From assembly GCF_000424465.1 (NCBI RefSeq), contig NZ_KE384194.1, forward strand, positions 15,145-79,144: a stretch of DNA of 64,000 nt, given 5' to 3'. The notes under the pieces are model-generated. The model searched no databases and was not told the origin of the DNA. It saw only the letters and a list, made by a program, of their open reading frames with translations. Both the position numbers and the translations under genes were made by a program. Positions within the stretch are counted from its first letter, which is position 1. Each line of letters opens with the position of its first letter. Below, piece by piece: positions 12,030-62,393 of this stretch. Source of the DNA: Butyrivibrio hungatei NK4A153 (GTDB lineage Bacteria > Bacillota > Clostridia > Lachnospirales > Lachnospiraceae).

Positions 12030-12046
12030 CTGCAAATTCACTTTGA

Positions 12047-12262: not shown

Positions 12263-12286
12263 ATCCTTTCCCTCCCTATAGTATGA

Positions 12287-12745: not shown

Positions 12746-12859
12746 GCTGTAACCTCCATAATCCTGATAAAAAATGTTATTTATCACTATTTAATTATAT
12801 ACGTAAAAACGTACAATTACCATACTTATTATAATCTTGATGATATAAGAAATTCTTCA

Positions 12860-29409: not shown

Positions 29410-29411
29410 AA

Positions 29412-43676: not shown

Positions 43677-44465
43677 TCATCCGGTGATTTGACTTTTAAG
43701 ATAGAGATTCCCATTAACTCCGGTCATAACAGGCTCTATGTTATGCTGCTTAACCAGATACGAAAGATTCTGCCTTGTACACTCAAGCAGCTCACATGCC
43801 TTGGTCGTATCGACAATATTTTTTCCTATAAAGGTAATAAAATCCTCATAGGAAATATCAATCATACGCCCTTTCTCATAAAGAAGCCATGAAGGAATAT
43901 CTATGGAATCGTTGAACGTAACATAATAACCACCCCAACCGAGGCTACATGACTCATAAAGGTCTCTGCTTGCGATCACCTTATTTACTCCCCGTAAATC
44001 CGAAATGTCTGAAAGGGATATTTTTTTTACTGTTTTATCTTTAAAAAAGCACAGCAAAAAATCTCCTGCAAGCGCTGTACAATCAACCAGATTATGCGCA
44101 TCCCTCTCCGCAACAAATTCAGGGAGCTCATCTATCTTCCGTATGCACAGTCCATCCTGTGAACACCGTCCTTGCGCCAATTCCAAAAATTTCATTTCAT
44201 CATACTCTTTCAGCTTGTGAGTAGACAGTATATTGCCTATATTCTGCCTTCCTATGGGAATAACACGTTCTCTCACCCACATCAAACTCGCTTCCCTTGG
44301 AATTGTATAGATTTCTTTTTTTACAAAACTCGCAAAAAGAAGCGGCGCTGTCCACTCATCAAGTTCGCTTCTAAGCTCAATCATAAACGACTTGCTCTTT
44401 TCATGGTACAGTAAAACGCCTATATCAAGACTATTATCTTCATCATAGATATCATAGATTTTCAT
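43677..44465 (-). CDS. DUF2442-like/HTH partner of the HipA-like kinase
   Basis: 262 residues from ATG 44465 (AAGG seven bases before; an upstream ATG at 44483 is possible). The first 110 residues form an unrecognised domain (IYDIYDEDNSLDIGVLLYHE, LISERDEW-like acidic patch). The middle (about 125-205, DCTALAGDFLLCFFKDKTVKKISLSD) resembles DUF2442. The last 50 residues are an excisionase/MerR-like HTH (TTKACELLECTRQNLSYLVKQ) with a wing. It overlaps the kinase gene by 14 bases. It is the obvious candidate to bind the palindromic operators upstream and to act as antitoxin, though this is inferred. Confidence 0.65.
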   Translation of the reverse strand: MKIYDIYDEDNSLDIGVLLYHEKSKSFMIELRSELDEWTAPLLFASFVKKEIYTIPREASLMWVRERVIPIGRQNIGNILSTHKLKEYDEMKFLELAQGRCSQDGLCIRKIDELPEFVAERDAHNLVDCTALAGDFLLCFFKDKTVKKISLSDISDLRGVNKVIASRDLYESCSLGWGGYYVTFNDSIDIPSWLLYEKGRMIDISYEDFITFIGKNIVDTTKACELLECTRQNLSYLVKQHNIEPVMTGVNGNLYLKSQITG

Positions 44466-45261
44466 AAACCTTGTACCTTCCATAGATCATATTCCAAATA
44501 GTATCAATAAAAAAGTCTGACAACACTCCCTCCAGATCCTTGAATATCTCTTCTTTATGCTTAGCCTCAAGTATTCCTTTCAGCGTTTTTCCTTTGGTGG
44601 ATAAAAGAGACAGATTCTCAAAAGTTGATCTGCTGCCTATGAAATTATTGCATTGTTTATCTCCCATTATGTCAAATTTTTTTGCATCGTCATCCGACGA
44701 ACAAGAACATAACAGAGACAATCCATGATCGAACAGAGGCGCAACCCTAACGGTATGCGCTCTTGCATTTCTCAGCACTTCGATGTTAGCTCCATGTCTG
44801 TCTCGATTAAGGATAAGATAATCAATTACCAGCATATTCTCGATATACTCTCTCCATCCCATCCTAATGCAGAAATCATAATGTGATTCTCCGGGCTGCG
44901 CATTAAGTCTGTAGAAATCATCAAGCGAAGCCTTACTCTCTCCACGCTCTTTGAAATCATATGATGCACAAAGATACGTGTTGTATATATTTCCATCAAT
45001 CTCAATATCAGCATTTATCAGTTCATACTCAAGATGTTCCACTCCAAGAATATCAAGAAGTCTATCCACTATTATTTCATTTATACACTCATGTCCCACT
45101 ATCCCCTTTTCCAAATCAAAGTTAGAAAGCTTATAATACTTCTTGTGACCGCCTATGATCGAACTCGATTTCAGATAAGTCCCTGCTGTTCCGGAAGAAT
45201 TCCGCACATGCGACCAATTTAGATATGTAAGATCCTGAGTTTCTCTTATTACCTTTGCCAT
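44452..45261 (-). CDS. HipA-like Ser/Thr kinase (stand-alone catalytic domain)
   Basis: 269 residues. HipA-fold kinase motifs in order: Gly/Ser-rich loop (NSSGTAGTYLK, 21-31), KYYKLS with the ATP-binding Lys44, the helix-C Glu in GHECINE, the catalytic DRHGAN (154-159), and the metal-binding FDHG (Asp178). It lacks the N-terminal subdomain of E. coli HipA (440 residues). HipA-family toxins phosphorylate translation factors or tRNA synthetases; the target here is unknown. Ribosome site AAGGATG precedes ATG 45261. It is the first gene of a two-gene unit under a palindromic operator. Confidence 0.75.
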   Translation of the reverse strand: MAKVIRETQDLTYLNWSHVRNSSGTAGTYLKSSSIIGGHKKYYKLSNFDLEKGIVGHECINEIIVDRLLDILGVEHLEYELINADIEIDGNIYNTYLCASYDFKERGESKASLDDFYRLNAQPGESHYDFCIRMGWREYIENMLVIDYLILNRDRHGANIEVLRNARAHTVRVAPLFDHGLSLLCSCSSDDDAKKFDIMGDKQCNNFIGSRSTFENLSLLSTKGKTLKGILEAKHKEEIFKDLEGVLSDFFIDTIWNMIYGRYKVYENL

Positions 45262-48000: not shown

Positions 48001-49149
48001 TTAGCTGTTTTTGAGCACGTCCCTCACAAGTTCATAGAATTCATCACAGGGCATGGATGAACCATCATCGGTTATAATTTGATTATGCGATATTTTCCCG
48101 TTATATCTGACATATTTATCTTCAAACATGACTCTGTCCTGAATCATTCCTATAAAGCCATCTCTATCATAACCATAAGAATTAATATAATCCTCTATTG
48201 TATCAATATTTTCATTTTCATTGATATAAATACAAACCGTCATTGTCACATCACTTAAAAGATGTGACATTTCCGACGAGATATTCTTCGTAGAATAAAT
48301 TTTACTGTTCATAAATACCATTTCACCAACAGATCGCCATGTGAGTTCCTCTAGCCAATTTTCTCCATCATGTGACTTTACGAGATCCGCATACTTAAGT
48401 CCAAGCTCATTCATTACCAGACCGCCCTCTCCTTTAAAATATTTAAAGTTAAAGTCAACGTCATAATCATAATCGCTATAATCCAGTGATGAATGCATAT
48501 AATTTGGATTACCATAACAATCTTCGTAATCATTAATTTTATGAATATTAGGAACACCGCCTTCTTTTAGAATATAAAGATCCCAACAACTACCTCTGTT
48601 CGATTTATAATTCCCATTAAGATATGCAATGATTCCCATATCATTTATTGCCGGCTCATAATGAGTCAGTTCTGTGAAACTTCCACCATCGGCCATTGTA
48701 ATAAAATATCCGTTTCCTACATGTTTGGAAGGCAACGGTCCATAATTTTGAAGCCACCCGTAGGAACCTGATTTATTATATTTTCCATTAACTTCGGTAA
48801 TAACAAAATAGATTCCCTCACCATCTCCAATAACAAGCTCATCAGAACCATTTTTATCAAAATCTACATAAGTAAAAAGAAAACTCGGCATCCATAGTCG
48901 CCCCCATAAATTTGAAGCCGTATCTACAAATTCTTTTTCAAAAAATGATCTATACCTCTCGTCATCTTCTTTTTCACTGCAAGACGGAGCAATTGGATTA
49001 TCCAAGTTCGTTCGTACAGCCTTATATGTATTTGTTGCCTCCTCGATCGATACGTCACTGCAAATATCACCTGAAACTGGTTCTTTATTATCACCGCATG
49101 CTGTCAGTAATAAACACAACATTACTAAAAATATTTTTCCTACCTTCAT
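48001..49149 (-). CDS. Predicted lipoprotein with FG-GAP-like motif
   Basis: 382 residues. The signal MKVGKIFLVMLCLLLTAC gives a lipid-modified Cys18. The region after it includes FLFTYVDFDKNGSDELVIGDG, the same type of Asp-rich loop as in the two neighbouring lipoproteins, and then a Tyr/Asp-rich middle (SSLDYSDYDYDVDFNFKYF). Its start overlaps the SGNH gene's stop by four bases (ATGA), so it belongs to the MBOAT-SGNH transcription unit. Function unknown. Confidence 0.75.
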   Translation of the reverse strand: MKVGKIFLVMLCLLLTACGDNKEPVSGDICSDVSIEEATNTYKAVRTNLDNPIAPSCSEKEDDERYRSFFEKEFVDTASNLWGRLWMPSFLFTYVDFDKNGSDELVIGDGEGIYFVITEVNGKYNKSGSYGWLQNYGPLPSKHVGNGYFITMADGGSFTELTHYEPAINDMGIIAYLNGNYKSNRGSCWDLYILKEGGVPNIHKINDYEDCYGNPNYMHSSLDYSDYDYDVDFNFKYFKGEGGLVMNELGLKYADLVKSHDGENWLEELTWRSVGEMVFMNSKIYSTKNISSEMSHLLSDVTMTVCIYINENENIDTIEDYINSYGYDRDGFIGMIQDRVMFEDKYVRYNGKISHNQIITDDGSSMPCDEFYELVRDVLKNS

Positions 49150-50360
49150 TCTGCCTCTTCATTCTCGTCATTTACTTCCGATTTCCAATAATCTCCGTTC
49201 GCAATTCTCTCACGAATCTTATCTTCACCGAGAGAGAGTTCTTCCATCCAGAGGTCATAAGACTTCTTCCAGGAATTGTAATTGCGGCCGTGTCTTCTGT
49301 CATGTTTGCCAAGTTTGCCTGTCTTAACATAGTTCTCTGACAGGTAATCTTCAAACCACACGGTCACCTTATCGGCGCCGACAATATTTGTATGAGTTCC
49401 GCCGTCTTTGTAATCGGTAGCCTCATCAAAGCCAATCTCATCTAGATGCTGATTCATATCAAGGAAATTGTAGCCTCTCTCTGTCACATAATCCCTGATG
49501 TAATTGATTTTCTTTTGCTCCTCTTCGCTTACGGTAAACGGAGTGATAATAAAGAGCGCATCCTTATTATGCTTATTAAGACATGAAATAAGATCCGCCA
49601 AATATTCTTCCTGCTCAGCAGGCATCTTCACTACATCCGTAGCATTATGGCAATTCTCTTTTTCCGCAGGTCCAACCTCATCAGAAGACGTAAAACCTTT
49701 CAGATCATCAGGATACTCATAAAAAAACGTACGTAGCTGGCTCCACATTACAAGCGTCTTCCAATTTGAATGATACTTAAAAATATCAAAGTAAAAGTTA
49801 ATGCGTTTCATATCCTCATTAACTTTGCCATCATCGTCACTCTCAGCATTCTCTGCATCATCTTCATCATTCTCAGAATCTTCTGCATCATCTGCATAAT
49901 CTTCATCTACCATCGCATTTATGGCGCGAATCCTGTTAAGAGAATACTTCATGTTATCCGTAACTTCCCTTGTGTGACCCATGTGCTTATCTTTATCTGC
50001 ATTTATAAGTTGCTCATCCTCTGCCTGCCACATCTTCATCTCAAAGATAAAAAGATCCGGATCCTGCGTCTTAAGAGCCTCTTCCACAAGATACTTTGCT
50101 GCAACAGGTCTTTGCATATTTGTAGAAAGCGGATACATGGTTATCCCCATATCCCCGTAGATTCTTGGTGTAGCAATACAATAAGGAACAGGACTTGAAC
50201 CGATAATAACAGCATCTATCGTATTCTTTTTTTCCGCATAAAAACCGACAAACCTATCCTTCGCATCACTGGGGGTTCTGATACAGTAAGTGATATGAGG
50301 GATAAGCCACATAACCGCCACTATGAAAATTATTATCTTAAATATCTGTTTCTTACTCAT
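49146..50360 (-). CDS. Membrane-anchored SGNH-like protein, MBOAT partner
   Basis: 404 residues. One N-terminal membrane segment (IFKIIIFIVAVMWLIPHI) leads to an SGNH-hydrolase-like domain: nucleophile block VIIGSSPVPYC (Ser55/56) and the C-terminal DGGTHTNIVGAD with the catalytic Asp/His pair. A strongly acidic insertion (about 152-180, Asp/Glu/Ala/Asn repeats) interrupts it. Genes of this type follow MBOAT genes, as dltD follows dltB, and complete acyl transfer on the outer face. It lies 78 bases after the MBOAT gene. Confidence 0.8.
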   Translation of the reverse strand: MSKKQIFKIIIFIVAVMWLIPHITYCIRTPSDAKDRFVGFYAEKKNTIDAVIIGSSPVPYCIATPRIYGDMGITMYPLSTNMQRPVAAKYLVEEALKTQDPDLFIFEMKMWQAEDEQLINADKDKHMGHTREVTDNMKYSLNRIRAINAMVDEDYADDAEDSENDEDDAENAESDDDGKVNEDMKRINFYFDIFKYHSNWKTLVMWSQLRTFFYEYPDDLKGFTSSDEVGPAEKENCHNATDVVKMPAEQEEYLADLISCLNKHNKDALFIITPFTVSEEEQKKINYIRDYVTERGYNFLDMNQHLDEIGFDEATDYKDGGTHTNIVGADKVTVWFEDYLSENYVKTGKLGKHDRRHGRNYNSWKKSYDLWMEELSLGEDKIRERIANGDYWKSEVNDENEEAE

Positions 50361-50438
50361 AGTTTTTTATCTGAAATCCTTATAAACCAACAACCTATAA
50401 TACTTCCCTTAATTGCATGCAAACCGCACTATTAAAAC

Positions 50439-52013
50439 TTAGAAGTCATCATATATCGAATCCGCAGGATTAAATCCCGGTCCGTACTCGGCAAGTAAAA
50501 GTACTGTGAAAAACAGTGCAAAATACACAATCCATCTGACCACAAGCTTCTTGGACGCAATATACTCCCTTAAGTTTGAATATCCTTCAAATCTGCTGCC
50601 TGTGATCTTACCGTCACGCGATAGCTCCATTCTGTACTGAATAGTTGAAACCGTAATGAGCACCGCAAGTGATACAAGCAGCACTCCCCACTCGTAAATG
50701 CTTAGTCCGAGATTAAGCAAACTTCCATCAACAAAGATCTGCGGATTAAACGTACTCACGCTTCTTTTAAGCAATCCAAGCGCATGCGGAATACTCTTTG
50801 ATCTAAAGAACAGATCTCCGATGCATACAAAGAAAAATGTTCTCACAACCCTGAATCCGTTTGCAAATTTACTCTGCAGATTGATGTGCATCTTCTTTTC
50901 AAAAATCCATGTAAAGAACGGAAGTGTCACTTCTCCGAGCACGATATATGCCCAGTGCAAAAGACCTGAACCGATAACAAAAGTTGCCTCTCCTCCGTGC
51001 CATAAACCTACAGAAAACCATAAGATGAACATTGCAACGTAAGTAGTGAGCTGCTTACCTTTCTTTTTACCAAAGACTTTCTTAAGCGTTTTTCCAAGTC
51101 CCATTATCATCTTGGTACGAAGAAGCGGGTAAAAGACATTGTCCTTCATCCAGATTCCGAGCGTAGCGTGCCACCTTCTCCAATACTCGCTTATGTTCTT
51201 AGCAAAGAAAGGAGTCGTAAAGTTTTCTGGAAGAATGATTCCAAGCATCTCGGACAAACCGATCACAATATCTATTCCACCCGAAAAATTCGTATATAAC
51301 TCAAAAGCAAAACACACAGTACCCAGCCAGATATATGCTCCCGTGTACTCTGCATCAATGGCGTAAATCTTATCAACAACAGTGCGAAGTCTCTGCGAGA
51401 TAACAAGCATCTTAAAGAAGCCCCAGAGCATTCTCTGCGCTCCGAATGTAAGATTCTTAAAATCAGCTTTGTGATATTCAAACAACTGCCCACTGTGTTC
51501 ACGGGTTTTTATAATAGGTCCCTGAACCACAAGCGGAAAGAACACACCGATGAGAGTTGTCTCAAGAAGGCTGTCCCTTCTTACTCCGATGCCGTTATAA
51601 ACTTCAATAAAGTATCCCAAAAGAATAAAAGTATAGAATGAAAGTCCCGTAGGAGGTTTAATACCGCCACCTGTTATGAACTTATAGAACTTAAACACGA
51701 TAAGTATTCCAAGAAGAACAACAAGCTCCGCAACAAGAATCAGCCTTCTTTTTAGAAGCTCTTTTTCTTCTGTCCCGGCCAAAAGCTTTAAAAGCCCCCA
51801 TGTCGTAAACGAGGCTGCAAGCGGAAATACAATCTGCACATAGTTCCCATTTACGGAAAACAAATAGAAGATGATGCTCGCAAATAAAAGCACCACCCAC
51901 TGACCTCTTTTTTTGAACAAAAGAGGAATCGTATAATATGCAATTAACACAAGTGCAAAAAAGCACAGAAAATAAAACGAAGTTATACCCATAAAAAATC
52001 TTTCATATAACAC
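50439..52013 (-). CDS. MBOAT-family O-acyltransferase (DltB/AlgI-like)
   Basis: 524 residues with about 11 membrane segments. The family motifs are present: SFYTFILLGYFIEVY, SGGIDIVIGLSEMLGI, FFAKNISEYWRRWHATLG (His282) and LWFSVGLWHGGEATFVIG with the invariant active-site His339. MBOAT proteins pass an acyl group from a carrier on the inside to an acceptor outside. GTG 52013 with AAGGA nearby is given; Met at 51992 is an alternative. It stands downstream of FkbH and ACP genes and upstream of the SGNH partner. Confidence 0.92.
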   Translation of the reverse strand: MLYERFFMGITSFYFLCFFALVLIAYYTIPLLFKKRGQWVVLLFASIIFYLFSVNGNYVQIVFPLAASFTTWGLLKLLAGTEEKELLKRRLILVAELVVLLGILIVFKFYKFITGGGIKPPTGLSFYTFILLGYFIEVYNGIGVRRDSLLETTLIGVFFPLVVQGPIIKTREHSGQLFEYHKADFKNLTFGAQRMLWGFFKMLVISQRLRTVVDKIYAIDAEYTGAYIWLGTVCFAFELYTNFSGGIDIVIGLSEMLGIILPENFTTPFFAKNISEYWRRWHATLGIWMKDNVFYPLLRTKMIMGLGKTLKKVFGKKKGKQLTTYVAMFILWFSVGLWHGGEATFVIGSGLLHWAYIVLGEVTLPFFTWIFEKKMHINLQSKFANGFRVVRTFFFVCIGDLFFRSKSIPHALGLLKRSVSTFNPQIFVDGSLLNLGLSIYEWGVLLVSLAVLITVSTIQYRMELSRDGKITGSRFEGYSNLREYIASKKLVVRWIVYFALFFTVLLLAEYGPGFNPADSIYDDF

Positions 52014-52061
52014 GCATCCTTCTTATAAAACAGGCGCCTGCCACTAAATATAATTCTTTTA

Positions 52062-53951
52062 TTACTTGATCATATACTCTTTCTCATACCACTGCTGGAA
52101 CATAAGGATATACCATATCTGTATCCTGTAAATTCCGCGCTGTGTGAAGTCGGTCCAGATTTTCTCTACAACATCGGGATCAAGTATACCCTGCTGCCTT
52201 ATCTTATCTTTATCAAGAAGAGCTTCTGCCCACTGCCTTATTTTATCATCAAGGAGCCATTTGTCTATCGGAATCGAAAAACCTTTTTTCGGCCTGTTGA
52301 CCATCTCCTTGGGAACGTACTTATAGAGCACGTTTCGAAGAACCTGCTTTCCGACATTCCCTTCCCTTAAGTAATTCCTTGGAAGGCTCCACGCAAATTC
52401 AAGTATATCCCTGTCAAGCATCGGAACTCTCGTTTCAAGAGAGACCGCCATTGCCGTCCTGTCGACTTTGACAAGAATGTCATCGGGATGATAAACAAGC
52501 ATATCCATAAGCATCGCATTGTGACACGGATCTGCAAGAAGATTCGTATCCATCTCGGTATATTTGTATGAAAGAGATTTTGCACCGTTCTTAAGCGCAA
52601 TCTTTTTTACAATAGGATCACCCTCATGCTCAAGCCTGTGAACATCCCCGGGGCCTTTTGCTCCCATGTACATAGACTTAGCCATTCCGGCTTCGCTCTT
52701 TGAATATGGGCTGTTAAGCATAAGGATTGATGCGGGTTTTCTTATAAAGTACGGAAGTTTTCCAACCTTCCCCCACACTCTTTCAACAGACTCATAGGAT
52801 CTGTATCCCGCAAAAAGCTCATCTCCGCCGTCGCCCGAAAGCGATACGGTAACGTGCTTTCTTGTCATCTTACTAACAAGATATGTCGGAATCTGTGAAG
52901 AATCCGCAAAAGGCTCACCAAACATAAAGGAAAGCTGCGGAATTACTTCTTTTGCATCCTTCTCTGTTATATATTCCTCGGTATGGATTGTTCCCAGATG
53001 CCTTGCTATCTCGCCTGCCTGCTCGGCCTCGTTGAACTTCTTATCTTCCATTCCGACGGTAAATGTTCTTACCTTGCCGGGAGCAACGGACTGCATGAGC
53101 GCAACGATCGTGCTGCTGTCTATTCCCGCTGACAAAAAAGCTCCAAGCGGAACATCGGCAACCATCTGTCCTTTTATAGACTCTTTAAGAAGTCTCTCAA
53201 GTTCTTCCGCCGCCTCTTCCTTGCTACCTTTAAAAAGATTGCTCTGCCCTTTTACGGCAGTTTCCGTCATTGAAAAATAGCTCTTTGTCTCATAAGAAAG
53301 ATCGTCGACATTTACAGTCATGATACATCCCGCTTCTAGCTTATAGATGCCCTTGTAAATCGTATAGGGCGCAGGAATATATCCTTCTGTAAAATAAATA
53401 TCGAGAACCTCTGTGTTTATCTCATTATCAAAGCCTTCTATCACGCGAAGACAGCCGATATCCGAAGCAAATGCAAAAGCTCCGCCAACGTTTCCGTAGT
53501 ACAAAGGCTTTTCTCCGACTCTGTCTCTTGCAAAAGTGACGGTGTTTTTGTCCATATCATAGACGGCAATTCCGAACATTCCTTTGCACATTTTCAAAGT
53601 TTCTTCCATGCCGTAAGCATCTATCGATTCTATAAGAATTTCAGTATCGGAAGTTCCGTTAAATTCAGCAACTTTCCCCTCCGCGATAAGCTTGTCTTTT
53701 ACCACGGATGCATTGTAGATCTCGCCGTTATATGCGATAACTTTTCGTCCGGAATGTGACATCATGGGCTGAGCGCCCTTTTTGGATAAGTCCACAATAG
53801 AAAGGCGCCTATGTCCAAGCGCCACTTTCTCATCATCACTTATGTAAATTCCTTCATCGTCGGGACCTCTGTGAAGCATCCTGTCATTCATCTTTTTGAT
53901 GTTTCCTTTAAGGTCGCCTCTATACCCGATAAGTCCTGCTATTCCGCACAT
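52062..53951 (-). CDS. asnB: AsnB-type glutamine-dependent amidotransferase, copy 1
   Basis: 629 residues. The mature N-terminus has the catalytic Cys2 (MCGIAGLIGYRG), the glutaminase residues in NGEIYN and SDTEIL, and the synthetase domain with PP-loop LSAGIDSS and LSGDGGDELFAGY. It would make asparagine, or amidate a carboxylate such as a uronic acid, as AsnB homologues in glycan loci do. It overlaps the FkbH gene by 13 bases. A second AsnB is at 57624. Confidence 0.92.
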   Translation of the reverse strand: MCGIAGLIGYRGDLKGNIKKMNDRMLHRGPDDEGIYISDDEKVALGHRRLSIVDLSKKGAQPMMSHSGRKVIAYNGEIYNASVVKDKLIAEGKVAEFNGTSDTEILIESIDAYGMEETLKMCKGMFGIAVYDMDKNTVTFARDRVGEKPLYYGNVGGAFAFASDIGCLRVIEGFDNEINTEVLDIYFTEGYIPAPYTIYKGIYKLEAGCIMTVNVDDLSYETKSYFSMTETAVKGQSNLFKGSKEEAAEELERLLKESIKGQMVADVPLGAFLSAGIDSSTIVALMQSVAPGKVRTFTVGMEDKKFNEAEQAGEIARHLGTIHTEEYITEKDAKEVIPQLSFMFGEPFADSSQIPTYLVSKMTRKHVTVSLSGDGGDELFAGYRSYESVERVWGKVGKLPYFIRKPASILMLNSPYSKSEAGMAKSMYMGAKGPGDVHRLEHEGDPIVKKIALKNGAKSLSYKYTEMDTNLLADPCHNAMLMDMLVYHPDDILVKVDRTAMAVSLETRVPMLDRDILEFAWSLPRNYLREGNVGKQVLRNVLYKYVPKEMVNRPKKGFSIPIDKWLLDDKIRQWAEALLDKDKIRQQGILDPDVVEKIWTDFTQRGIYRIQIWYILMFQQWYEKEYMIK

Positions 53952-55744
53952 ACTGTCTCCACGTCTATAACATTGTTTTTATTTGTATATCCATCAAGAT
54001 CAAGCTTGTAGGTCTTATTCCCCTCTTCATCTTCTTTCACAAGTTCAAATCCCTGTAAAGAATAGAAGTCCTTGACCATCTTATTCTTGGCTGTGGGATA
54101 ATAGTATCCGTAAACGGTCTTTATTCCCCTTTCACCCGCTTTCTTTGCAAGTTCATCCATCATGGCAAATTCCATATCTCTTTTTAAAACTCTACAGCTC
54201 ATAAGCCAGAGATCGATATGAAGTTCGTCGCCATCCTGCTTGCCTATCACAAGCGAAACTATTCCGTTATCTCCGAATTTATCCTCGAGACGACCGTAAA
54301 GTGTGATGTTGCTGCTGTCATTTGCAGTCTTCTCGATATCATCGGGAGTATATCTCTTTGTTGTAAGATTAAACTGATTGCTCTTGTTTGTAAGCTGGGC
54401 AATCCTTGGAATGTACATCTTTTCAAAAGGAGCTATGACAGCCTTCATCTCAAGAGACTTAAGGTACTCGCTGTAATCCTTGAAGCTCTCCTGAAGCTCT
54501 GTCCTCTTCCTGTTTGCCATGTACATCTCATTTCTTTTCCTGTCATCCTCAGAAATGGATGTTGTCTCAAAAAATCCCGAGTGATCGAGAATTCTTATAT
54601 AGTGCTCGGGAGTATCGATCTCAGGCGCATTCACCTTAGGAATCTGTCCCGTAACAATCGCTCTCTCAGCCGGATTGTCATCCACAAAGACAAGTGATTC
54701 CGGAAGCACATTGAGCTCTGAAGCAATCGCCTTCATATTCTCACTCTTGGGTTCCCAGTTTGCCTTTATGAATACAAAATCATCGGGTTTAAGCGCTCCG
54801 TCGGGATGATTAAGCCCCGCAAGTGCATTCTCTTCATCGTTCTTGGAATCAACCGCAAGAACGATACCAAGCTCCTTCTGAGCTTTGATATAATTCTGGA
54901 ATTCAAGATAAACCTGACCTAAACTGGTCTCCTGTCCTATCTCGATTCCGTCCGGACCGTCGTCGCCTACAACGCCGCCCCACAGTGTATTGTCGAGGTC
55001 AAGAACAAGTCCCTTCTTGTTCTTTCCGTAAATCGACTTGATTATATTTGCCACATTAAAACTGAGCGTAGGTATAGCCTGAATGCAGAGCGCATACTTG
55101 TACATATGCCATGCAAGAGGATCTGACCACGCATCAAGTCCGTAGCAGGTTGAAAGATAATTTATATCATTTATAAAAAAGCTTCCTTCATCTCCCGAAG
55201 CCTTTCCTGCATACTCGGAAAACATGAGATTAAGCCTGTTGATAAAAGAAAGCCTTCCGTGAATGTCATATCCGTCCCTGTTTCCCATAAGCCTGTAAAA
55301 AGGCGCCTCAAAATTATTCTGGATAATCGGACAATGATAGAGTTCATGCAGATTGTGCCACATCGTCTCAAAGTGCCTGAATGTATTATCAAGCTTATCC
55401 TGTACCGCTGCCTCGCTGTCATCCATAGTAGGATATTCGATAATATTCCTGTTACTTGTGTGGATAAAGATAATGTCAGGAGCAAACTCTTTTAACTCAT
55501 CCGAAGGAAACATGGCATCCTGCCAGTACTGTCCGTACTCAGATTCATAGAAAACAGGCTCTATATCATAGTTAAGCAAAAAGAGCTCCAGAATCCTAAT
55601 GATATCGTGAGTTGTGGAGCCTCCGAGCACCGCTATCTTTTTCTTTATCCTGTCCGAACCGTCAGCAAGAAGAGCCTTCTTTATCGACTTGGACTTTTTC
55701 ATTATGTAACTGTTGTCAAATGGATATTCCAGTTCTTTCATCAT
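53939..55744 (-). CDS. FkbH-like HAD-IIIC protein (acyl loading onto carrier protein)
   Basis: 601 residues in three parts. There is an N-terminal SGNH-like segment (KIAVLGGSTTHDIIRILELFL), the HAD-IIIC domain with nucleophile motif VLDLDNTLWGGVVGDDG (Asp249/Asp251) and FVDDNPAERAIV, and a C-terminal GNAT-like part (about 440-580, MMDELAKKAGERGIKTVYG). FkbH proteins take 1,3-bisphosphoglycerate, dephosphorylate it and attach the glyceryl group to an ACP. An ACP gene lies 1.6 kb upstream in the same unit. The start has GAGGA nearby. Confidence 0.88.
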   Translation of the reverse strand: MMKELEYPFDNSYIMKKSKSIKKALLADGSDRIKKKIAVLGGSTTHDIIRILELFLLNYDIEPVFYESEYGQYWQDAMFPSDELKEFAPDIIFIHTSNRNIIEYPTMDDSEAAVQDKLDNTFRHFETMWHNLHELYHCPIIQNNFEAPFYRLMGNRDGYDIHGRLSFINRLNLMFSEYAGKASGDEGSFFINDINYLSTCYGLDAWSDPLAWHMYKYALCIQAIPTLSFNVANIIKSIYGKNKKGLVLDLDNTLWGGVVGDDGPDGIEIGQETSLGQVYLEFQNYIKAQKELGIVLAVDSKNDEENALAGLNHPDGALKPDDFVFIKANWEPKSENMKAIASELNVLPESLVFVDDNPAERAIVTGQIPKVNAPEIDTPEHYIRILDHSGFFETTSISEDDRKRNEMYMANRKRTELQESFKDYSEYLKSLEMKAVIAPFEKMYIPRIAQLTNKSNQFNLTTKRYTPDDIEKTANDSSNITLYGRLEDKFGDNGIVSLVIGKQDGDELHIDLWLMSCRVLKRDMEFAMMDELAKKAGERGIKTVYGYYYPTAKNKMVKDFYSLQGFELVKEDEEGNKTYKLDLDGYTNKNNVIDVETVCAE

Positions 55745-55761
55745 AAAAAACTTATCCTCTA

Positions 55762-56973
55762 TTATCCTTCCATTATCTTATCAAAATACTTTTTCCACTT
55801 GGCATTGGTAACATCGGGACTGCATATTTCCTGAATCTTGGTAGCCTCTGCTCCGAGCTTCTCAGATAGTTCCTTATCTGACAGTACCTTTGTAATGGCA
55901 CGTGCCATAGCATCTTTGTCTCCAACGGGAACAAGAAGTCCGTTTACACCGTCATCAATTAGGTCTCTCGGTCCGCCGCAGGGACAATCCGTCGATATAC
56001 AGGGAAGTCCCAGTGACATCGCCTCAATAAGAGAATTCGGCATACCTTCATGATTGGATGCAAGTATGAAAAGCGCAGCCTTCTCGATATGCTCCGCCAC
56101 ATTGCTTACATTTCCCTTAAACTCAACTCTTTTTCTTATCCCAAGTTCGGATGCAAGCCTCTGAAGCTTAATGCTGTCCGGACCGTCTCCGTAAAAAACA
56201 AGTGAATAATCGGGAAAAGCTTCGCCTGCTGCGTCTTTAAACGCCCTCATTACCATTTCCTGATTTTTATTACTGTTAATCCTTGCAACCATCACAATCT
56301 TCTTCTCACGGTCGCCGATATAGCGTTTCCTGATAAAAGAAGGATTGAGCGAGTTTGGAAGTATTATACATTTCTTTTGAATATATTTGGGAAATTTGAC
56401 TTTTGCGCCTTTAGACTGGACAACAACGCCTGCCGCTTTTCCGAAAGTTGCAAGCATACCCGCTTTTAGCCCTCTGCTGCCGTACTCCATATCGGGATCT
56501 GCACGCACAGATACAACAACTTTTATTCCCTCTCTTGTAGCGGTTGAAAGAGCCATTATGTTGTTTTTTCCAAGGAAACTCAGTACCAGATCGGGTTTAA
56601 GGTCTTTCCAGATATTACGGAGTTTCTCGTATCTGTTCTTTAGATTTGCCGCTCTGCCTGCCTGTTCTTCTTTAAGAAGTGCGGAAAAGACTCTTCTGAT
56701 ACCGCCCTTTTCTCCGCCTTCAAGGTCAACCCACACAGGGTTTTCATCAAGATCTGCGACATGGACTGCATTGGGTGCCCCCGCGGGAACACGCTTCCAT
56801 GCTGCATGTTTTACTTCATATTCATTTGCCGCCAGATATGTAGTAACGAGAGTAACTTTATAACCCTGCTCAAAAAAATAATCGGCAAGATTAGACATTA
56901 CTCTCTCCGCTCCGCCCTTTTCGAGCGAACCTATATACATGGCGATATGTTTTTTATTCTCAGAATTCGACAA
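55762..56973 (-). CDS. GT4-family glycosyltransferase
   Basis: 403 residues, GT-B fold. N-terminal IAMYIGSLEKGGAERVMSNLADYF and C-terminal KIVMVARINSNKNQEMVMRAF, with FILASNHEGMPNSLIEAMSLGLPCISTDCPCGGPRDLI carrying the EX7E pair. It is close to the GT4 at 60355 in the last motif. The start overlaps the VOC gene stop by 14 bases. Confidence 0.92.
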   Translation of the reverse strand: MSNSENKKHIAMYIGSLEKGGAERVMSNLADYFFEQGYKVTLVTTYLAANEYEVKHAAWKRVPAGAPNAVHVADLDENPVWVDLEGGEKGGIRRVFSALLKEEQAGRAANLKNRYEKLRNIWKDLKPDLVLSFLGKNNIMALSTATREGIKVVVSVRADPDMEYGSRGLKAGMLATFGKAAGVVVQSKGAKVKFPKYIQKKCIILPNSLNPSFIRKRYIGDREKKIVMVARINSNKNQEMVMRAFKDAAGEAFPDYSLVFYGDGPDSIKLQRLASELGIRKRVEFKGNVSNVAEHIEKAALFILASNHEGMPNSLIEAMSLGLPCISTDCPCGGPRDLIDDGVNGLLVPVGDKDAMARAITKVLSDKELSEKLGAEATKIQEICSPDVTNAKWKKYFDKIMEG

Positions 56974-57349
56974 GTTCGATTATCCCCATACTGATATTAT
57001 TCAAAAAGGCAACTTTCTTGCCGTCTATACAAGGCGCGATAGTAGGCTCATGTATGACGGTGTAGTGTTTGCTCTCAAGCTCTTTTACAGCCTTGTCCAT
57101 ATCTTCCACTTCATAGCAAAAATGATAAGGGGTATTCTTAAAGCGCTTCAAAAGCGGATACATCGGGGAATTCTCTCCCATGGGCTCAATGAGCTCAACT
57201 CTGTAATCTCCGTTTTTCAGAAACTCGATCTTAATATCCCTTATCTCATCGTACTTGGTGGCCTGTTCAACTTCATAACCAAGCTCAAAAAATTTCTTTT
57301 CCGTCTTGTCTATGCTCTTGGCAAGGTATCCTACATGATGTATTTTCAT
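56960..57349 (-). CDS. VOC-family (glyoxalase/epimerase-like) protein
   Basis: 129 residues from ATG 57349. Two beta-alpha-beta-beta-beta modules: IHHVGYLAKSIDKTEKKFFELGYEVEQAT and TPYHFCYEVEDMDKAVKELESKHYTVIHEP. The metal ligands expected for methylmalonyl-CoA epimerase (His4/His5, Glu in VELIEP, His in YHFCYE, Glu in GIIELVEF) appear to be present. It lies between the ACP and a GT4, so it may act on the carrier-bound or sugar-bound acid; the substrate is unknown. Only four bases separate it from the ACP stop. Confidence 0.8.
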   Translation of the reverse strand: MKIHHVGYLAKSIDKTEKKFFELGYEVEQATKYDEIRDIKIEFLKNGDYRVELIEPMGENSPMYPLLKRFKNTPYHFCYEVEDMDKAVKELESKHYTVIHEPTIAPCIDGKKVAFLNNISMGIIELVEF

Positions 57350-57353
57350 CTTA

Positions 57354-57599
57354 TTATCCCTGTAATTTGCTGATGATAATGTCTGCCATCTCACCTACAT
57401 TTTTCATGGATACGATCTGTCCCATGTTGAATTTGATATCAAACTCCTGCTCAATGGCATTTATAAGATTGATGTGCTCAAGTGAATCCCATCCGTCTAC
57501 GTCTGCTGCCGTTGTAGCATCTTCAACGGTGATGTCGTCATCTTCGAAAACATCTCTGAACACTTCGTTTAATTTCTCAAATACTTCTTCTCTTGTCAT
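57354..57599 (-). CDS. Acyl carrier protein
   Basis: 81 residues, acidic four-helix ACP. The phosphopantetheine site is VDGWDSLEHI with Ser39, and helix 3 reads IEQEFDIKFNMGQIVSM. It is distinct from the housekeeping fatty-acid ACP, whose usual neighbours (fabF, fabD) are absent. GAGGAG precedes ATG 57599. Its position among FkbH, VOC and MBOAT genes suggests it carries the acyl group used to decorate the glycan. Confidence 0.92.
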   Translation of the reverse strand: MTREEVFEKLNEVFRDVFEDDDITVEDATTAADVDGWDSLEHINLINAIEQEFDIKFNMGQIVSMKNVGEMADIIISKLQG

Positions 57600-57623
57600 T
57601 TATTTCTCCTCTTTTCACTTCTG

Positions 57624-59567
57624 TCAGATCATGTGGAAATTATACCACTGCTGGAATATATAGAATGACCACGCAATCTTGCTGTAGTTAGCTCCCGTTG
57701 CGGGGCCTCCGTCTCCTTTTACAACATAATCGTTTATAAAGTTTGAAACATAGTTTACATCAAAAATATCCTGTTTGCTAAGGAAAGATGTGCTGCTGTA
57801 ATCAAGAAGCTGCTCTCTTAAAGGTCCGCGAAGCCATTCATCCATAGGCACGCCGAAACCTGTCTTTGGTCTTTCCAAAAGCTCTTTAGGTATATAGTCA
57901 TAAGCAATATCTTTTAAGATATGCTTCTTATCGCCCCTATTATACTTGAATCTGTGAGGTATCCTGAACGAATACTCCATAACCTCCGTATCCATGATAG
58001 GACATCTTGCTTCAAGCGAATATTTCATGGACGCCCTGTCCATCTTAACCAGAATATCCTCGGGAAGGTATGTATCCATATCAAGAAGCATTCTTCTTAT
58101 CTGGAAATTATTTACTCCGTAAAGGCTCTCCACAGGATACAGAACAGGCTGCATATTGCTTCCGACATTGTAATCCGTCGCAAGATACTGAGCCGCACTC
58201 ATCGGGATATCCATGTCCTCATTGCCTGATATAAAGGCATGCGAAGCTCTTACATATCCTTCTGATACAAGCTGTGTCTTGGTTTCGGGATCTCTGTTGT
58301 TTGCAACAACCTTAACCCTGAACGGCATCTTATCAAGGAGCGTTCCGTCTCCGCTCTTAATACGCGAAAGACTGTGTACAATAGCTCCCGGAATATCAAG
58401 AAGCTGCGCTGTTCTCACGTTATCATATACATTATATCCGCAGAAAAACTCATCTCCTCCGTCACCCGAAAGAGCTACGGTGACATCCTGCTTTGCAAGT
58501 TTACTTACAAGCATCGAAGGAATCTCTGAGTTATCCGCAAAAGGTTCGTCGTAGTACTGCGGAATACTACTTACAAGCTCGAACATCTCTTTTTCCGAAA
58601 TATAGAGCTCTGTGTGATCGGTTCCAAGGTGTTTTGCGATTTCCTTGGCATACTCCGCTTCATTATATCTGGGAACATCAAAACCTATGCAGAATGTCTT
58701 TACGGGCCTGTCTGAATGTTCCTGGGCAATTGCCGTTATAAGAGATGAATCATATCCGCCCGACAAGAAAGTTCCGAGAGGAACATCGGCTATCATTCTG
58801 GATGCAACGGACTTCTTAAGTCTCTCTTTCAGTCCTTCCTTTGCTTCCGCATAGCTTCTTACGGGATTTTTTGACATCTCTTTATATACTTCTTTTATAT
58901 CCCAATACTTCTTCTTGGTGATCTTACCTGCGCTAAACTTAAGATATGAACCTGCCTCAAGCTTATACACATCGGTAAAGATAGTATCGGGAGCAGCAAT
59001 ATACTGCTGAAGAAGAAATCTTGAAATAACCTGTTTTCTTATCTCCGGCTTAAATCCGGGGCACTTCATAATAGGCTTAAGCTCTGAAGCAAAAACAATG
59101 TTTTCTCCGTCAAACCAGTAAAAAAGCGGCTTCTTACCTATTCTGTCTCTTATAAGATAAACATCGGATGTCTCTCTGTCATATATTGCAATCGCAAACA
59201 TTCCGTGGATGTGATCCACCATATCTATTCCCCACTTGAGGTACGCAGCGATTATAACTTCCGTATCACAATTCGACTTAAACTCATAGTCAGAGAGTTC
59301 TTCCTTGAGTTCACGGTAGTTGAATATCTCTCCGTTATAGACAACAGATATTCTGCCGTTCTCGGAGTGCATCGGCTGATGTCCCAAAGGAGACAGATCC
59401 AGGATTGAAAGACGTCTCTGAGCAAAGCCTATGACATAATCATCTGCTCCTGAATAGATCTCAACACCGCTGTCATCGGGCCCTCTGTGATACATGGTAT
59501 CATTCATGATCCTCAGTTGTTCTTCAGTTATTCTCTTTTTTGAAATATATCCGCAAATTCCGCACAT
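57624..59567 (-). CDS. asnB: AsnB-type glutamine-dependent amidotransferase, copy 2
   Basis: 647 residues with all class II glutaminase and synthetase features: MCGICGYISKKR (Cys2), NGEIFNYREL, SNCDTEV, the PP-loop LSGGYDSS and LSGDGGDEFFCGY. It differs throughout from the copy at 52062, so it is not a recent duplicate; the two may amidate different substrates. ATG 59567 follows the deacetylase-like gene by nine bases. Confidence 0.92.
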   Translation of the reverse strand: MCGICGYISKKRITEEQLRIMNDTMYHRGPDDSGVEIYSGADDYVIGFAQRRLSILDLSPLGHQPMHSENGRISVVYNGEIFNYRELKEELSDYEFKSNCDTEVIIAAYLKWGIDMVDHIHGMFAIAIYDRETSDVYLIRDRIGKKPLFYWFDGENIVFASELKPIMKCPGFKPEIRKQVISRFLLQQYIAAPDTIFTDVYKLEAGSYLKFSAGKITKKKYWDIKEVYKEMSKNPVRSYAEAKEGLKERLKKSVASRMIADVPLGTFLSGGYDSSLITAIAQEHSDRPVKTFCIGFDVPRYNEAEYAKEIAKHLGTDHTELYISEKEMFELVSSIPQYYDEPFADNSEIPSMLVSKLAKQDVTVALSGDGGDEFFCGYNVYDNVRTAQLLDIPGAIVHSLSRIKSGDGTLLDKMPFRVKVVANNRDPETKTQLVSEGYVRASHAFISGNEDMDIPMSAAQYLATDYNVGSNMQPVLYPVESLYGVNNFQIRRMLLDMDTYLPEDILVKMDRASMKYSLEARCPIMDTEVMEYSFRIPHRFKYNRGDKKHILKDIAYDYIPKELLERPKTGFGVPMDEWLRGPLREQLLDYSSTSFLSKQDIFDVNYVSNFINDYVVKGDGGPATGANYSKIAWSFYIFQQWYNFHMI

Positions 59568-59576
59568 TATTTATAT

Positions 59577-60338
59577 TTACAGCTCCACAGGTAGTTTTTC
59601 GAAGTTATCGCGAAGAGCACCGAAATCCTTGCACTCATTATCAATAGAATCGATAAGCTCGACATATTTCTCATTAACAAGTGTCTTATAGTTCTCAAGA
59701 TTGTCATATCCCTTCTTTGTCCATGCAAAAGGATGTGTCAGAATCTGAACCTTATCATATTTATTTATTGTTTCTTCATCGGGATAGCCGTATCTCCAAA
59801 CATGGTTTGCATCCGACAGATACTTTACATCAAGCTCCGACTCGGGTGTTGCCTTGGGATCAAATGTAAAAAAGTCATCCTGATATGCGTTGATAATTCC
59901 TGAAATCTTGATATTCTCCGCAAGAACGTCGGGTGACGGTCTGTGAATGGAAAAAGAGTTGATCTCAAAGCCGAGCATATTGCTGAGCATATCGATTTCC
60001 TGCTTAATCCTCTCTCGTATAACTCTCATATCTGTCATTCCGTTTAATGCAAAGTGAAGACCTATATGCTGGCCTCTCTCATGCATATCGGAAAGAATAT
60101 CCCTGTTTTTTCTGGACAGGATATTATATGAATTATTTGTCCACTGGAAAAAGAATGTAGACCTGAAGTCCATACTCTCTTCAACCTTGGCAAGAGCATG
60201 CGCTCTCTCAACCGAATACTCAACGTCGTGTCTCATAATGACAAAGCTGTCTTTATCAAGTGCTTCTTCATATGTGGCATAACGGCCCGTAGCTTTAATG
60301 GCACGGACAATCTCTCTGTAATCATCAAATGAAAACAT
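59577..60338 (-). CDS. Polysaccharide deacetylase-like protein
   Basis: 253 residues. The NodB/CE4-like frame is visible: DSFVIMRHDVEYSVERAHALAKVEE (HD metal motif), HIGLHFALNGM (HxxxH-like site, one His seen) and NSFSIHRPSP. Many glycan-locus members of this group are divergent and their substrates unknown. There is no signal peptide, so it should be cytoplasmic and act on a sugar nucleotide or lipid-linked sugar. It could produce the free amine that the formyltransferase uses. Confidence 0.75.
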   Translation of the reverse strand: MFSFDDYREIVRAIKATGRYATYEEALDKDSFVIMRHDVEYSVERAHALAKVEESMDFRSTFFFQWTNNSYNILSRKNRDILSDMHERGQHIGLHFALNGMTDMRVIRERIKQEIDMLSNMLGFEINSFSIHRPSPDVLAENIKISGIINAYQDDFFTFDPKATPESELDVKYLSDANHVWRYGYPDEETINKYDKVQILTHPFAWTKKGYDNLENYKTLVNEKYVELIDSIDNECKDFGALRDNFEKLPVEL

Positions 60339-60354
60339 TACCCTTATTCTCCTG

Positions 60355-61455
60355 TTATTTTCTAATAATCTTCTCTAAATAATCTCTCCACTGCACAAAT
60401 ACAGCTTCGGAATTAGCAATCTGTTCTATCTTGGAAGCTTCATCTCCAAGGCGCTCCGCAAGTTCTCTGTCCTCGATAAGCTTACATATACCCTCGGCAA
60501 GCGCGTCAGGATCCTTTATCGGAACAAGAAGTCCGTTCTCACCGTCTCTTATAACGGTTCTTGGACCGCCGCACGGACAATCCGTTGCAACACAGGGCAT
60601 TCCCATCGCCATTGCTTCAAGAAGCGAATTCGGAAGCCCTTCCCAATCCGATGAAAAGGCGTAAACCGCGCCCTTTGGTATTTCCTTTTCGAGCTCATCG
60701 CTTCCGCCCATGAGAAGAATGTAGTCTTCCGCGTGGTTATCCGCAATAATCTTATCAAGGATCTCTTTTGTCCCGTCAAAAGAATCGGGACCATAGATCT
60801 TAAGCACATAATCTGGGTGCTTTTCATGCACCTTTATAAAAGCTTCACAGAGCATAGGCTGATTTTTGAAGTCTACAAGCCTTGCGTGGTGGACCACGGA
60901 CTTATCTCTGCTCTCAGGCTTCTTAAGGCCAAAATACTTGGGATTTATCGGATTTAATATAATGGCTGAATTATCCTGAAGGTATGGCTTAAAAAACTCT
61001 TTCTGTCCGGTTGTCTGAAATACACAACCTGCTGCCCTCGGGAACAACCACTTTATCTGTACTTTATCAGAAAACGCATCATAATGTCCAACCGGGTCTG
61101 TCCTTATGGATATTACGACAGGCACGTCACTTTTGCCTGCTGCCATGAGCGCTCTGTAATTGGCTCTCTGCGCAAATGCTATAAGTACATCCGGATGATA
61201 ATTTTTCACAAATTCTTTGAGATATTTCACACGTAAAAAGAACTTTGTTATCCTGTTCTTTTTCTCATCGCCTTCACGAAGACCTACGTGCACTCTTGTG
61301 ACTCTCTCATCAAGAGCAAACTCATTTTCATCCACCCACTCAGTGGCGACATACACTTTATAGCCTTCCTTGGCAAATTGATTGGCGAGGTTTGATACCA
61401 CGCGCTCGGCACCGCCCTGTACAAGGCAGTTCAAGTGAAATGCTATTGTTTTCAT
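60355..61455 (-). CDS. GT4-family glycosyltransferase
   Basis: 366 residues, GT-B fold: IAFHLNCLVQGGAERVVSNLANQFA at the start, HHARLVDFKNQPMLCEAF in the middle, and YAFSSDWEGLPNSLLEAMAMGMPCVATDCPCGGPRTVI with the two Glu residues of the EX7E motif. It adjoins the formyltransferase by two bases. The donor sugar cannot be told. Confidence 0.92.
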   Translation of the reverse strand: MKTIAFHLNCLVQGGAERVVSNLANQFAKEGYKVYVATEWVDENEFALDERVTRVHVGLREGDEKKNRITKFFLRVKYLKEFVKNYHPDVLIAFAQRANYRALMAAGKSDVPVVISIRTDPVGHYDAFSDKVQIKWLFPRAAGCVFQTTGQKEFFKPYLQDNSAIILNPINPKYFGLKKPESRDKSVVHHARLVDFKNQPMLCEAFIKVHEKHPDYVLKIYGPDSFDGTKEILDKIIADNHAEDYILLMGGSDELEKEIPKGAVYAFSSDWEGLPNSLLEAMAMGMPCVATDCPCGGPRTVIRDGENGLLVPIKDPDALAEGICKLIEDRELAERLGDEASKIEQIANSEAVFVQWRDYLEKIIRK

Positions 61456-61457
61456 AA

Positions 61458-62393
61458 TTACAAAAGTACCGTTCCTACTTTTAATTCTGCTTCAGATTCA
61501 TATCTGTCTATTCTTATGGATCCGTCAACTGTGCGGACAATCGGCTTTCCGTCGAACATATCCACAATCTCACCGGGAGCAAATCCGGAAAAATCTATCA
61601 TCTCATCAAAAGGATGTGCTTCCCAGACAGTAACCTTATTCTTCTCATCCTCGGATCCCGCATAGCAGAATGCTCCGGGGAAAGGTGCCGCAACGCCCCT
61701 TATAAGATTATAGATATTTCTTGTTCTGTCTTTGAAATCTATCTTTCCGTCTTTGGCCGTACGTTTATTGTACCATGAATCATAGTCTTTTGAATCGGTG
61801 TGAATGGGAATCTCACCTTTTTCCATATATGTTGTGACAAGCTTTCTGATAAGATTCTTGGAACAGATCATATTCTTGTACTGAGCCGTTCTGATATCGT
61901 CGTGCTCATTTATCTGGAACATCTCCGTTGCAAATACATTCGGACTGTCCGCATGCTCATCATATCTGAAAAGATTGAGATTAAATCTTGTATCTCCGAG
62001 AATAACCGACCAGTTAAGGGGTGATCTTCCTCTTCCGAAGGGAAGATATCCACAATTTCCGTGGAAACCGTATATTCCGCTCTTAAATGCATCAAGAACT
62101 TCCTTGGGAATAAGTCTCTGCCATCCCATTACGATTCCGAGGTCAAAAGTATTTTCCTCAATGAACTTCTTTGTCTTTTCATCGTTAAGGAAATAGCTCT
62201 CTGCTTCGAAAACTGGAATTCCATACTTCTCTGTCAGGAAGCTGAGTCCCTTGAATCCTGAAACCTGATTATGTTCAAGAACCTTGGGTGCAATGGTCAT
62301 TACAAGGTCAACCTTGCAAAGTTCTTTTTCTATGAAATCTATTATGTTCTCGGATGTATCTTTTACACCGAAGACTACAACTTTATAATGCAT
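61458..62393 (-). CDS. Formyltransferase (sugar N-formyltransferase-like)
   Basis: 311 residues. The formyl_trans_N fold carries the catalytic triad Asn-His-Asp in YGFHGNCGYLPFGRGRSPLNWSVILGD, and the C-terminal part matches the Fmt-type barrel (IRGVAAPFPGAFCY, VWEAHPF). The genome's fmt for initiator tRNA would be elsewhere; here a 10-formyl-THF-dependent formylation of an amino sugar is expected, as with WbkC or VioF. It overlaps the upstream GT4 by one base. Confidence 0.85.
   Translation of the reverse strand: MHYKVVVFGVKDTSENIIDFIEKELCKVDLVMTIAPKVLEHNQVSGFKGLSFLTEKYGIPVFEAESYFLNDEKTKKFIEENTFDLGIVMGWQRLIPKEVLDAFKSGIYGFHGNCGYLPFGRGRSPLNWSVILGDTRFNLNLFRYDEHADSPNVFATEMFQINEHDDIRTAQYKNMICSKNLIRKLVTTYMEKGEIPIHTDSKDYDSWYNKRTAKDGKIDFKDRTRNIYNLIRGVAAPFPGAFCYAGSEDEKNKVTVWEAHPFDEMIDFSGFAPGEIVDMFDGKPIVRTVDGSIRIDRYESEAELKVGTVLL

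Follow-up and report, generated by a model that had tools for sequence, protein, structure and literature searches.

A proposed FkbH-loaded carrier protein as acyl donor for an MBOAT-SGNH pair from a Butyrivibrio hungatei glycan cluster

RESULTS

Putative acylation genes of the locus

We analyzed a stretch of 64,000 nucleotides from Butyrivibrio hungatei NK4A153 (RefSeq assembly GCF_000424465.1, contig NZ_KE384194.1, positions 15,145 to 79,144 of the forward strand), here referred to as the window. Between positions 49146 and 59567, the minus strand of the window encodes an acyl carrier protein (ACP), an FkbH protein of the HAD-IIIC type, a membrane-bound O-acyltransferase (MBOAT), and an SGNH-type membrane protein, together with a VOC protein, a glycosyltransferase, and two AsnB-type amidotransferases. 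An initial annotation had an ACP (Ser39), an FkbH-like HAD-IIIC protein, an MBOAT with both conserved His residues, and an SGNH membrane protein in one transcription unit and also noted a VOC and two AsnB proteins. Our analysis confirms this gene set, which is closely packed on a single strand and retains its catalytic residues. We propose that these genes probably specify a carrier-fed decoration system of the MBOAT-SGNH kind, with FkbH taking the place of an adenylation enzyme as loader of the carrier. Neighboring genes overlap by 14 and 13 bases or are separated by gaps of 4 to 78 bases, and a simple scan of these gaps found no minus-strand terminator-like site; it is plausible that the genes form one transcription unit.

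The ACP gene (57354-57599, minus strand; PF00550, 27.9 bits) encodes the proposed glyceryl carrier, in which Ser39 lies in a WDSLxHI context and is kept in 66/66 homologues. Conservation here and below was counted over homologues from FkbH loci, the MBOAT set also including other loci of the window's genome. The putative glyceryl loader, FkbH (53939-55744, minus strand), scores 288.8 bits on TIGR01686, for which the cut-off is 146.65. Residues D249, D251, K301, N302, D355, D356, and C517 are each present in 65/65 homologues, so the active-site aspartates, whose loss would have spoken against the initial annotation, are in place. Its solved homologue, 3slr, is labeled "uncharacterized protein."

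The MBOAT gene (50439-52013, minus strand, with the true start probably at 51992) encodes the proposed ACP-fed transmembrane acyltransferase, which barely reaches the cut-off of PF03062 (27.9 bits, cut-off of 27). His282 and His339 are each kept in 45/45 homologues, and the C-terminal sequence SIYDDF retains Tyr521, the candidate shuttle residue, and the last Phe of the motif FXYXXF. In PatA, and in DltB by way of DltX, the acyl group is passed to the tyrosine of such a C-terminal motif and then to the SGNH protein (PMC12148441). The C-terminal Y..F pattern was present in 77/88 FkbH-linked MBOATs, 10/10 linked to an adenylation domain (A domain), and 7/7 with an ACP only, and in 0/3 DltB proteins. 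The FkbH-linked MBOATs thus pair a likely carrier donor, a feature of Dlt, with the fused shuttle of PatA.

The SGNH-type membrane protein (49146-50360, minus strand), a proposed DltD/PatB-like final transferase, has no Pfam or NCBIfam match at E 0.01. Its putative assignment draws on residue conservation (Ser56 in 21/23, Asp319 in 19/23, and His323 in 23/23 homologues) and from an AlphaFold model (pLDDT 66.4) that matched mostly SGNH/GDSL-type structures, none of them reaching E 0.001. PatB and a DltD-type entry were among the 50 fold matches listed, all above E 0.001.

Recurrence of the module in other genomes

In 299 sampled genomes of the window's family, Lachnospiraceae, FkbH exceeded the cut-off in 63. 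We took 69 FkbH neighborhoods, leaving out a few fragmentary matches; 9 were dropped for short flanks, and the other 60, the window not being counted, extended 1.5 kb or more to either side of FkbH. Within 1.5 kb on the same strand, an ACP gene was found in 51/60 loci, an MBOAT gene in 27/60, both in 26/60, and a VOC gene in 14/60, while an SGNH gene stood beside FkbH on the same strand in 7/60 loci within 1.5 kb and in 15/57 within 3 kb. As a control, we used 40 of the 60 listed polysaccharide pyruvyl transferase matches from the same family, 38 of which had the needed flanks; MBOAT, ACP, and VOC genes were each found in 0/38 and an SGNH gene in 2/38. The difference in MBOAT linkage (27/60 versus 0/38; Fisher p 9e-8) therefore indicates that the pairing of FkbH with MBOAT is more than chance.

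A second set came from a scan of named genomes, in which the 80 best-ranked of the 564 confirmed relatives of FkbH were kept, and from 4 plasmid loci; 74 of these 84 had the needed flanks. Since it was ranked by similarity to a Rhodobacteraceae FkbH, this set leans to Pseudomonadota, but it also holds Bacteroidota, Nitrospinota, Planctomycetota, and Verrucomicrobiota. An ACP gene was found in 54/74 of its loci, an MBOAT gene in 41/74, both in 34/74, and a VOC gene in 12/74. One Rhodobacteraceae plasmid carries a row of genes for an ACP, FkbH, an MBOAT, a 358-amino-acid protein, a VOC protein, and a hexapeptide protein. FkbH matches occurred in 118 plasmid records, 40 of them from Sinorhizobium, and in the one Sinorhizobium plasmid locus inspected, MBOAT and ACP genes adjoin FkbH.

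Two loader types in one MBOAT clade

Viewed from the MBOAT side, 11 of the 14 proteins nearest to that of the window (at least 283 bits, the window not counted) are encoded no more than 5 kb from FkbH. Of the remaining three, one (genome G190) has an adjacent ACP gene and FkbH at a different place in the genome, and two are encoded on contigs that are 3.5 and 6.6 kb long. In G190 (L163 and L065), the parts look split: FkbH has no ACP or MBOAT gene beside it, and an ACP-MBOAT-SGNH set without FkbH is found on another contig. A further sample of 20 MBOAT loci in wider stretches, mostly next in rank but including three of the 14 nearest, contained FkbH in 0/20 and an ACP gene within 63 bases in 14/20. 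Among the nearest relatives, the co-occurrence of MBOAT with FkbH thus favors the initial annotation, which an MBOAT found mostly without the FkbH-ACP pair would have refuted; at greater sequence distance, the link to FkbH is absent, but most of the loci have an ACP gene. Several of these ACP genes adjoin a gene for an adenylation enzyme of about 510 amino acids; the three such A domains that were scanned are DltA-like, scoring 294 to 302 bits on TIGR01734, below the DltA cut-off of 559.85.

In a quick tree of 137 MBOAT rows (SH-aLRT supports, no bootstraps), the window's protein falls in a clade of 24 rows (support of 98), of which 17 are FkbH-linked, 3 have an ACP alone, and 4 have no partner. 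The group of 16 rows that this clade joins (supports of 84 and 91) has 10 that are linked to an A domain, 4 with an ACP alone, and 2 with none; as some rows were labeled from 1.5-kb flanks only, the labels "ACP alone" and "none" may miss partners. Both groups sit inside a 43-row clade with a support of 99, and three DltB rows that exceed the DltB cut-off branch apart. This grouping with A-domain- and ACP-linked MBOATs supports the proposal of the initial annotation that FkbH stands in for DltA in an MBOAT-SGNH route. The carriers of the two loader types differ, with the consensus WDSLxHI in the FkbH type (29 sequences) versus LDSFDIVSL in A-domain operons (9 sequences), and loader and carrier therefore look as if they were exchanged as a pair. 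The window's own genome encodes, on contig C11 (approximately 137850-142180; positions 6851-11177 of locus L364), an A domain, an MBOAT, an SGNH protein, and a weak ACP match (17.7 bits), which, judged by gene content, probably make up another carrier-fed system, in this case of the A-domain loader type.

A loop that is mostly absent from carrier-linked MBOATs

The sequence YIPLGG[NS]R follows the RWH histidine in 22/29 MBOATs without a detected partner, and the MBOAT of the window lacks this GG[NS]R loop. It was found in 0/57 MBOATs with an ACP gene within 1.5 kb (three of the 57 being true DltB). When FkbH lay within 5 kb but no ACP within 1.5 kb, 7/50 had the loop, and five of these seven share the locus with a loop-less MBOAT. 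Of the 10 MBOATs found in the window's genome, eight (L001-L008) are loop-bearing, and their flanks of up to 1.5 kb contain no partner gene; both loop-less proteins, that of the window and that of contig C11, are encoded together with a loader and an ACP, the latter being a weak match on C11.

A new sample at the level of the phylum, for which the loop pattern was fixed beforehand, comprised 58 loci with 45 distinct MBOATs; some flanks were short, one locus (L306) was from the window's genus, and the pattern varies slightly between the analyses. An ACP, FkbH, or A-domain gene lay within 1.4 kb of 0/39 loop-bearing MBOATs, and an ACP gene lay within 33 bases of 3/6 pattern-negative MBOATs (versus 0/39, p 0.0014). 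All three of the latter had an A domain close by in wider stretches, and two of the three pattern-negative MBOATs lacking a partner, L315 and L335, differ from the loop by a single letter.

The structure of DltB with DltC shows the carrier seated on helix HC of DltB (Met302, Val305, Ile306, Met309, and Lys312) (PMC11035591), and, counting along our alignment, this helix falls on the GG[NS]R loop. Within the 43-row clade, 91% of rows have Lys or Arg at position 311 and 81% have one of the two at position 320; for 23 unlinked MBOATs from outside the clade, the corresponding values are 0 and 4%. It is conceivable, but as yet a tentative part of the broader scheme discussed below, that the state of the loop predicts from sequence whether an MBOAT draws on coenzyme A (CoA) or a carrier protein.

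The cargo and the VOC protein

FkbH with a stand-alone ACP is expected to yield glyceryl-ACP, as in polyketide pathways (PMC7489565), and the cargo in the window is probably glyceryl. The VOC protein (56960-57349, minus strand; PF13669, 70.3 bits) scores 59 bits on the methylmalonyl-CoA epimerase model TIGR03081, under its cut-off of 114.95, and its nearest solved proteins, 3hdp and 2qh0, are labeled glyoxalase-I and lactoylglutathione lyase. H5, E52, and H76 are kept in 18/18 homologues and E125 in 17/18. The initial annotation had suggested that the VOC protein could alter the acyl or sugar carboxylate. Of the 14 family loci with VOC and FkbH, 5 have an MBOAT gene and 9 do not, so we now consider VOC an optional part of the module that probably acts on acyl-ACP. 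The acyl group derived from 1,3-bisphosphoglycerate is D-glycerate, which makes an epimerase that forms L-glycerate a reasonable idea, and the protein may be a glyceryl-ACP epimerase. A locus from Novosphingobium (L183) has a methyltransferase gene (11757-12875) between FkbH and MBOAT, which hints at an O-methylated acyl group.

Other genes of the glycan cluster

The glycosyltransferase gene (55762-56973, minus strand; PF00534, 139.9 bits) lies between VOC and FkbH and belongs to the glycan cluster. The AsnB-type amidotransferases at 52062-53951 and 57624-59567 (both minus strand) score 335.7 and 316.9 bits on PF00733 and 441.9 and 462.8 bits on TIGR01536, respectively. Their suggested part in altering or amidating the acyl group was rejected: an AsnB-like gene on the same strand within 8 kb was found in only 3/48 FkbH loci, the window not counted, and gene content places the AsnB genes in the window's glycan cluster, outside the recurrent acylation module.

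Other genes were noted nearby. A formyltransferase-like protein and a 253-amino-acid protein (59577-60338) are further members of the glycan cluster. A gene for a 382-amino-acid protein (48001-49149, minus strand), whose start looks lipoprotein-like on visual inspection, shares four bases with the end of the SGNH gene, and the operon therefore probably continues past SGNH. Further along the same region, the minus strand encodes a GH88-family protein (28312-29442), a polysaccharide pyruvyl transferase (31894-33102), and, in adjacent genes at 43677-45261, proteins of 268 and 269 amino acids, the second with an NRDRHG motif that we take to recall HipA-type kinases. An Rfam search of the window gave no match.

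DISCUSSION

Proposed pathway and alternatives

In the pathway that we consider probable, FkbH would take a glyceryl group from 1,3-bisphosphoglycerate, remove the phosphate, and load the phosphopantetheine of the ACP, after which VOC might epimerize or isomerize the 2-hydroxyacyl thioester. The acyl-ACP would dock on the cytoplasmic side of the MBOAT, in the region of helix HC, and the MBOAT, using His339, would transfer the acyl group to Tyr521 in its C-terminal part at the outer face; the SGNH protein would then accept it on Ser56 and esterify the surface glycan made by the neighboring glycosyltransferases. What we observe is the gene set with its residues, its recurrent linkage, an MBOAT clade that has both loader types, a tyrosine motif fused to the MBOAT, and the lack of the loop; each catalytic step, the glyceryl cargo, the role of VOC, and the glycan acceptor are what we infer.

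A number of observations weigh against this pathway, the case for which is genomic. Within the window, the VOC, glycosyltransferase, FkbH, and first AsnB genes stand between those for the ACP and the MBOAT, the first Phe of FXYXXF is replaced in the shuttle motif, and the fold support for SGNH is weak, given the modest confidence of the model and the E values of its matches. The Y..F pattern also occurs in 27/29 unlinked MBOATs and is thus silent on the donor. As to the loop, the FkbH-linked MBOATs of L092 and L101 keep it with no loop-less MBOAT found nearby, and L101 (genome G207), an FkbH-ACP-VOC locus from the window's own genus whose MBOAT keeps a GGSK loop, goes against the donor rule. 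Conversely, a loop-less MBOAT of genome G485 (L305/L360) has an SGNH neighbor but no ACP, FkbH, or A domain in 19.9 kb, and seven loop-less MBOATs of the 137 have no partner in the stretch examined. When the association of loop and linkage was corrected for relatedness, a median of 2 of 12 pairs was informative, none of them opposing, and this underpowered comparison gave p 0.5; the alignment at 311-320 is also less sure owing to an insertion of the clade near residue 315. Finally, other FkbH-ACP loci (L058, L049, and L053) contain a MaoC-type protein, with an SDR in L058, or GNAT and NeuB, and glyceryl-ACP may therefore serve several outputs.

These last loci, in which FkbH-ACP occurs with MaoC, SDR, GNAT, or NeuB genes and without an MBOAT, would suit an arrangement in which the MBOAT-SGNH pair is an ordinary acetyl-CoA O-acetyltransferase and the product of FkbH and ACP is used elsewhere, for example in cytoplasmic acylation of a sugar nucleotide. 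A recent mechanistic paper confines carrier-protein donors to Dlt and has the other MBOAT-SGNH pairs use acyl-CoA (PMC12148441), cyanobacterial suomilide clusters contain an FkbH that loads glycerate on a peptide synthetase and an MBOAT that acylates a sugar, as separate assigned tasks (PMC8609519 and PMC13122637), and the loop is retained in a small number of MBOATs linked to FkbH. However, the MBOAT of the window lacks the loop that all eight partnerless MBOATs of its genome carry, and its clade is commonly ACP-adjacent, close kin adjoining an ACP without FkbH in 14/20 loci. We regard this arrangement as improbable. Somewhat less doubtful, though still unlikely in our estimate, is the same export route with another cargo, with FkbH loading D-lactyl or some different three-carbon acid, or with the acyl group being altered before export by VOC or a further enzyme. 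Lactyl-loading FkbH domains are known, and members of the glyoxalase/epimerase fold, to which the VOC protein belongs, act on 2-substituted thioesters; the methyltransferase of the Novosphingobium locus also points this way. Against it, no oxidase or reductase family was matched among the ten operon proteins scanned.

The initial annotation called the system "Dlt-like," which describes its proposed working mode well but is wrong as a statement of family membership. True Dlt membership was rejected: on the DltB model, the MBOAT reached 126.3 bits, far from the cut-off of 375, the ACP had no match to the DltC model at E 0.01, and the MBOAT lies on a separate branch of the tree. No A domain was matched among the ten proteins scanned at 49146-62393. 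We also discarded the similarity to DltB as evidence for use of an ACP, as the window's MBOAT is outscored on that model by ordinary MBOATs from its genome (up to 194.9 bits). That similarity, weak as it is, and the A domain on another contig could be taken to indicate a divergent D-alanylation system with its A domain elsewhere and an unrelated FkbH. But that A domain has its own MBOAT, SGNH protein, and probable ACP, the ACP of the window is of a different type from those of A-domain operons, and true DltB, found over the cut-off in 3/100 genomes of the same family, branches apart; such a system is very improbable.

Returning to the pathway in which FkbH feeds the MBOAT through the ACP, it may be one instance of a broader class in which exchangeable loader-ACP pairs, with either FkbH or an A domain, serve loop-less tyrosine-shuttle MBOATs. 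The FkbH branch of this class would produce glycerate esters on surface glycans, some of them epimerized by VOC, in many phyla. We put this forward as a possibility, with rather more doubt than the pathway itself.

If true, the surface glycans of many bacteria would bear hydroxy-acid esters drawn straight from glycolysis, and a short loop could tell bacterial MBOATs apart by their donor. Such an ester decoration would be lost when a glycan is treated with base during its preparation. Native gellan bears L-glyceryl esters; literature titles and abstract openings named no gene for these, and the FkbH-ACP-MBOAT-SGNH module is a candidate route.

Comparison with known systems

The Dlt system (DltA-DltC-DltB-DltX-DltD) of teichoic acid D-alanylation shares with the system proposed here a carrier donor, an MBOAT with a catalytic His, and, probably, an SGNH partner, and the altered loop of the window's MBOAT type lies at the docking helix for DltC. 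In contrast to Dlt, the window has FkbH in the place of DltA, an ACP that is not DltC-like, an MBOAT from another clade that is below the DltB cut-off, and a cargo that is probably glyceryl, and the candidate shuttle tyrosine is fused to the MBOAT and probably not carried on a DltX microprotein, although no search aimed at microproteins was made. O-acetyltransferases of the PatA-PatB/AlgI type share the fused C-terminal shuttle tyrosine and, probably, the SGNH partner but are considered to use acyl-CoA and no carrier (PMC12148441), whereas the window has an ACP with a loader and no GG[NS]R loop.

The combination of FkbH with a stand-alone ACP is shared with the glycerate units of tetronates and of methoxymalonyl-ACP pathways (PMC7489565). 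Unlike in those polyketide pathways, no polyketide synthase, FabH-like ligase, or dehydrogenase was matched among the scanned operon proteins; FkbH and the ACP instead have an MBOAT-SGNH pair as neighbors, within a glycan cluster. In the glycerate esterification of vioprolide, a natural-product pathway reportedly described by Auerbach in 2018, FkbH-linked glycerate is said to end up in an ester. The flagellar glycan locus of Campylobacter jejuni includes an FkbH-domain gene, cj1302, and its surface glycan has dimethylglyceric acid, a glycerate derivative, on pseudaminic acid (PMC7099621); the passages covered do not tie cj1302 to the glycerate. We consider a cytoplasmic route likely there.

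In line with the initial annotation, we found no described pathway with this exact set of genes and no description of an FkbH-ACP pair feeding an MBOAT-SGNH pair for surface glycans, within the incomplete coverage of the open-access literature and the passages of it that were available; related cases came from natural products, and the work found with both FkbH and MBOAT concerned cyanobacterial aeruginosins. Among these, in the varlaxin pathway of cyanobacteria, a loader (AerO, an A domain), a carrier (AerP, a peptidyl carrier protein), and an MBOAT (AerQ) are proposed to cooperate on a sugar-bearing product (PMC10143770). It differs in that the product is a peptide, the loader is an A domain, and FkbH is a domain of the nonribosomal peptide synthetase with a separate task, and the passages covered mention no SGNH partner. 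The idea of an MBOAT linked to a carrier outside Dlt has thus been put forward before, varlaxin being a precedent with another cargo (PMC10143770).

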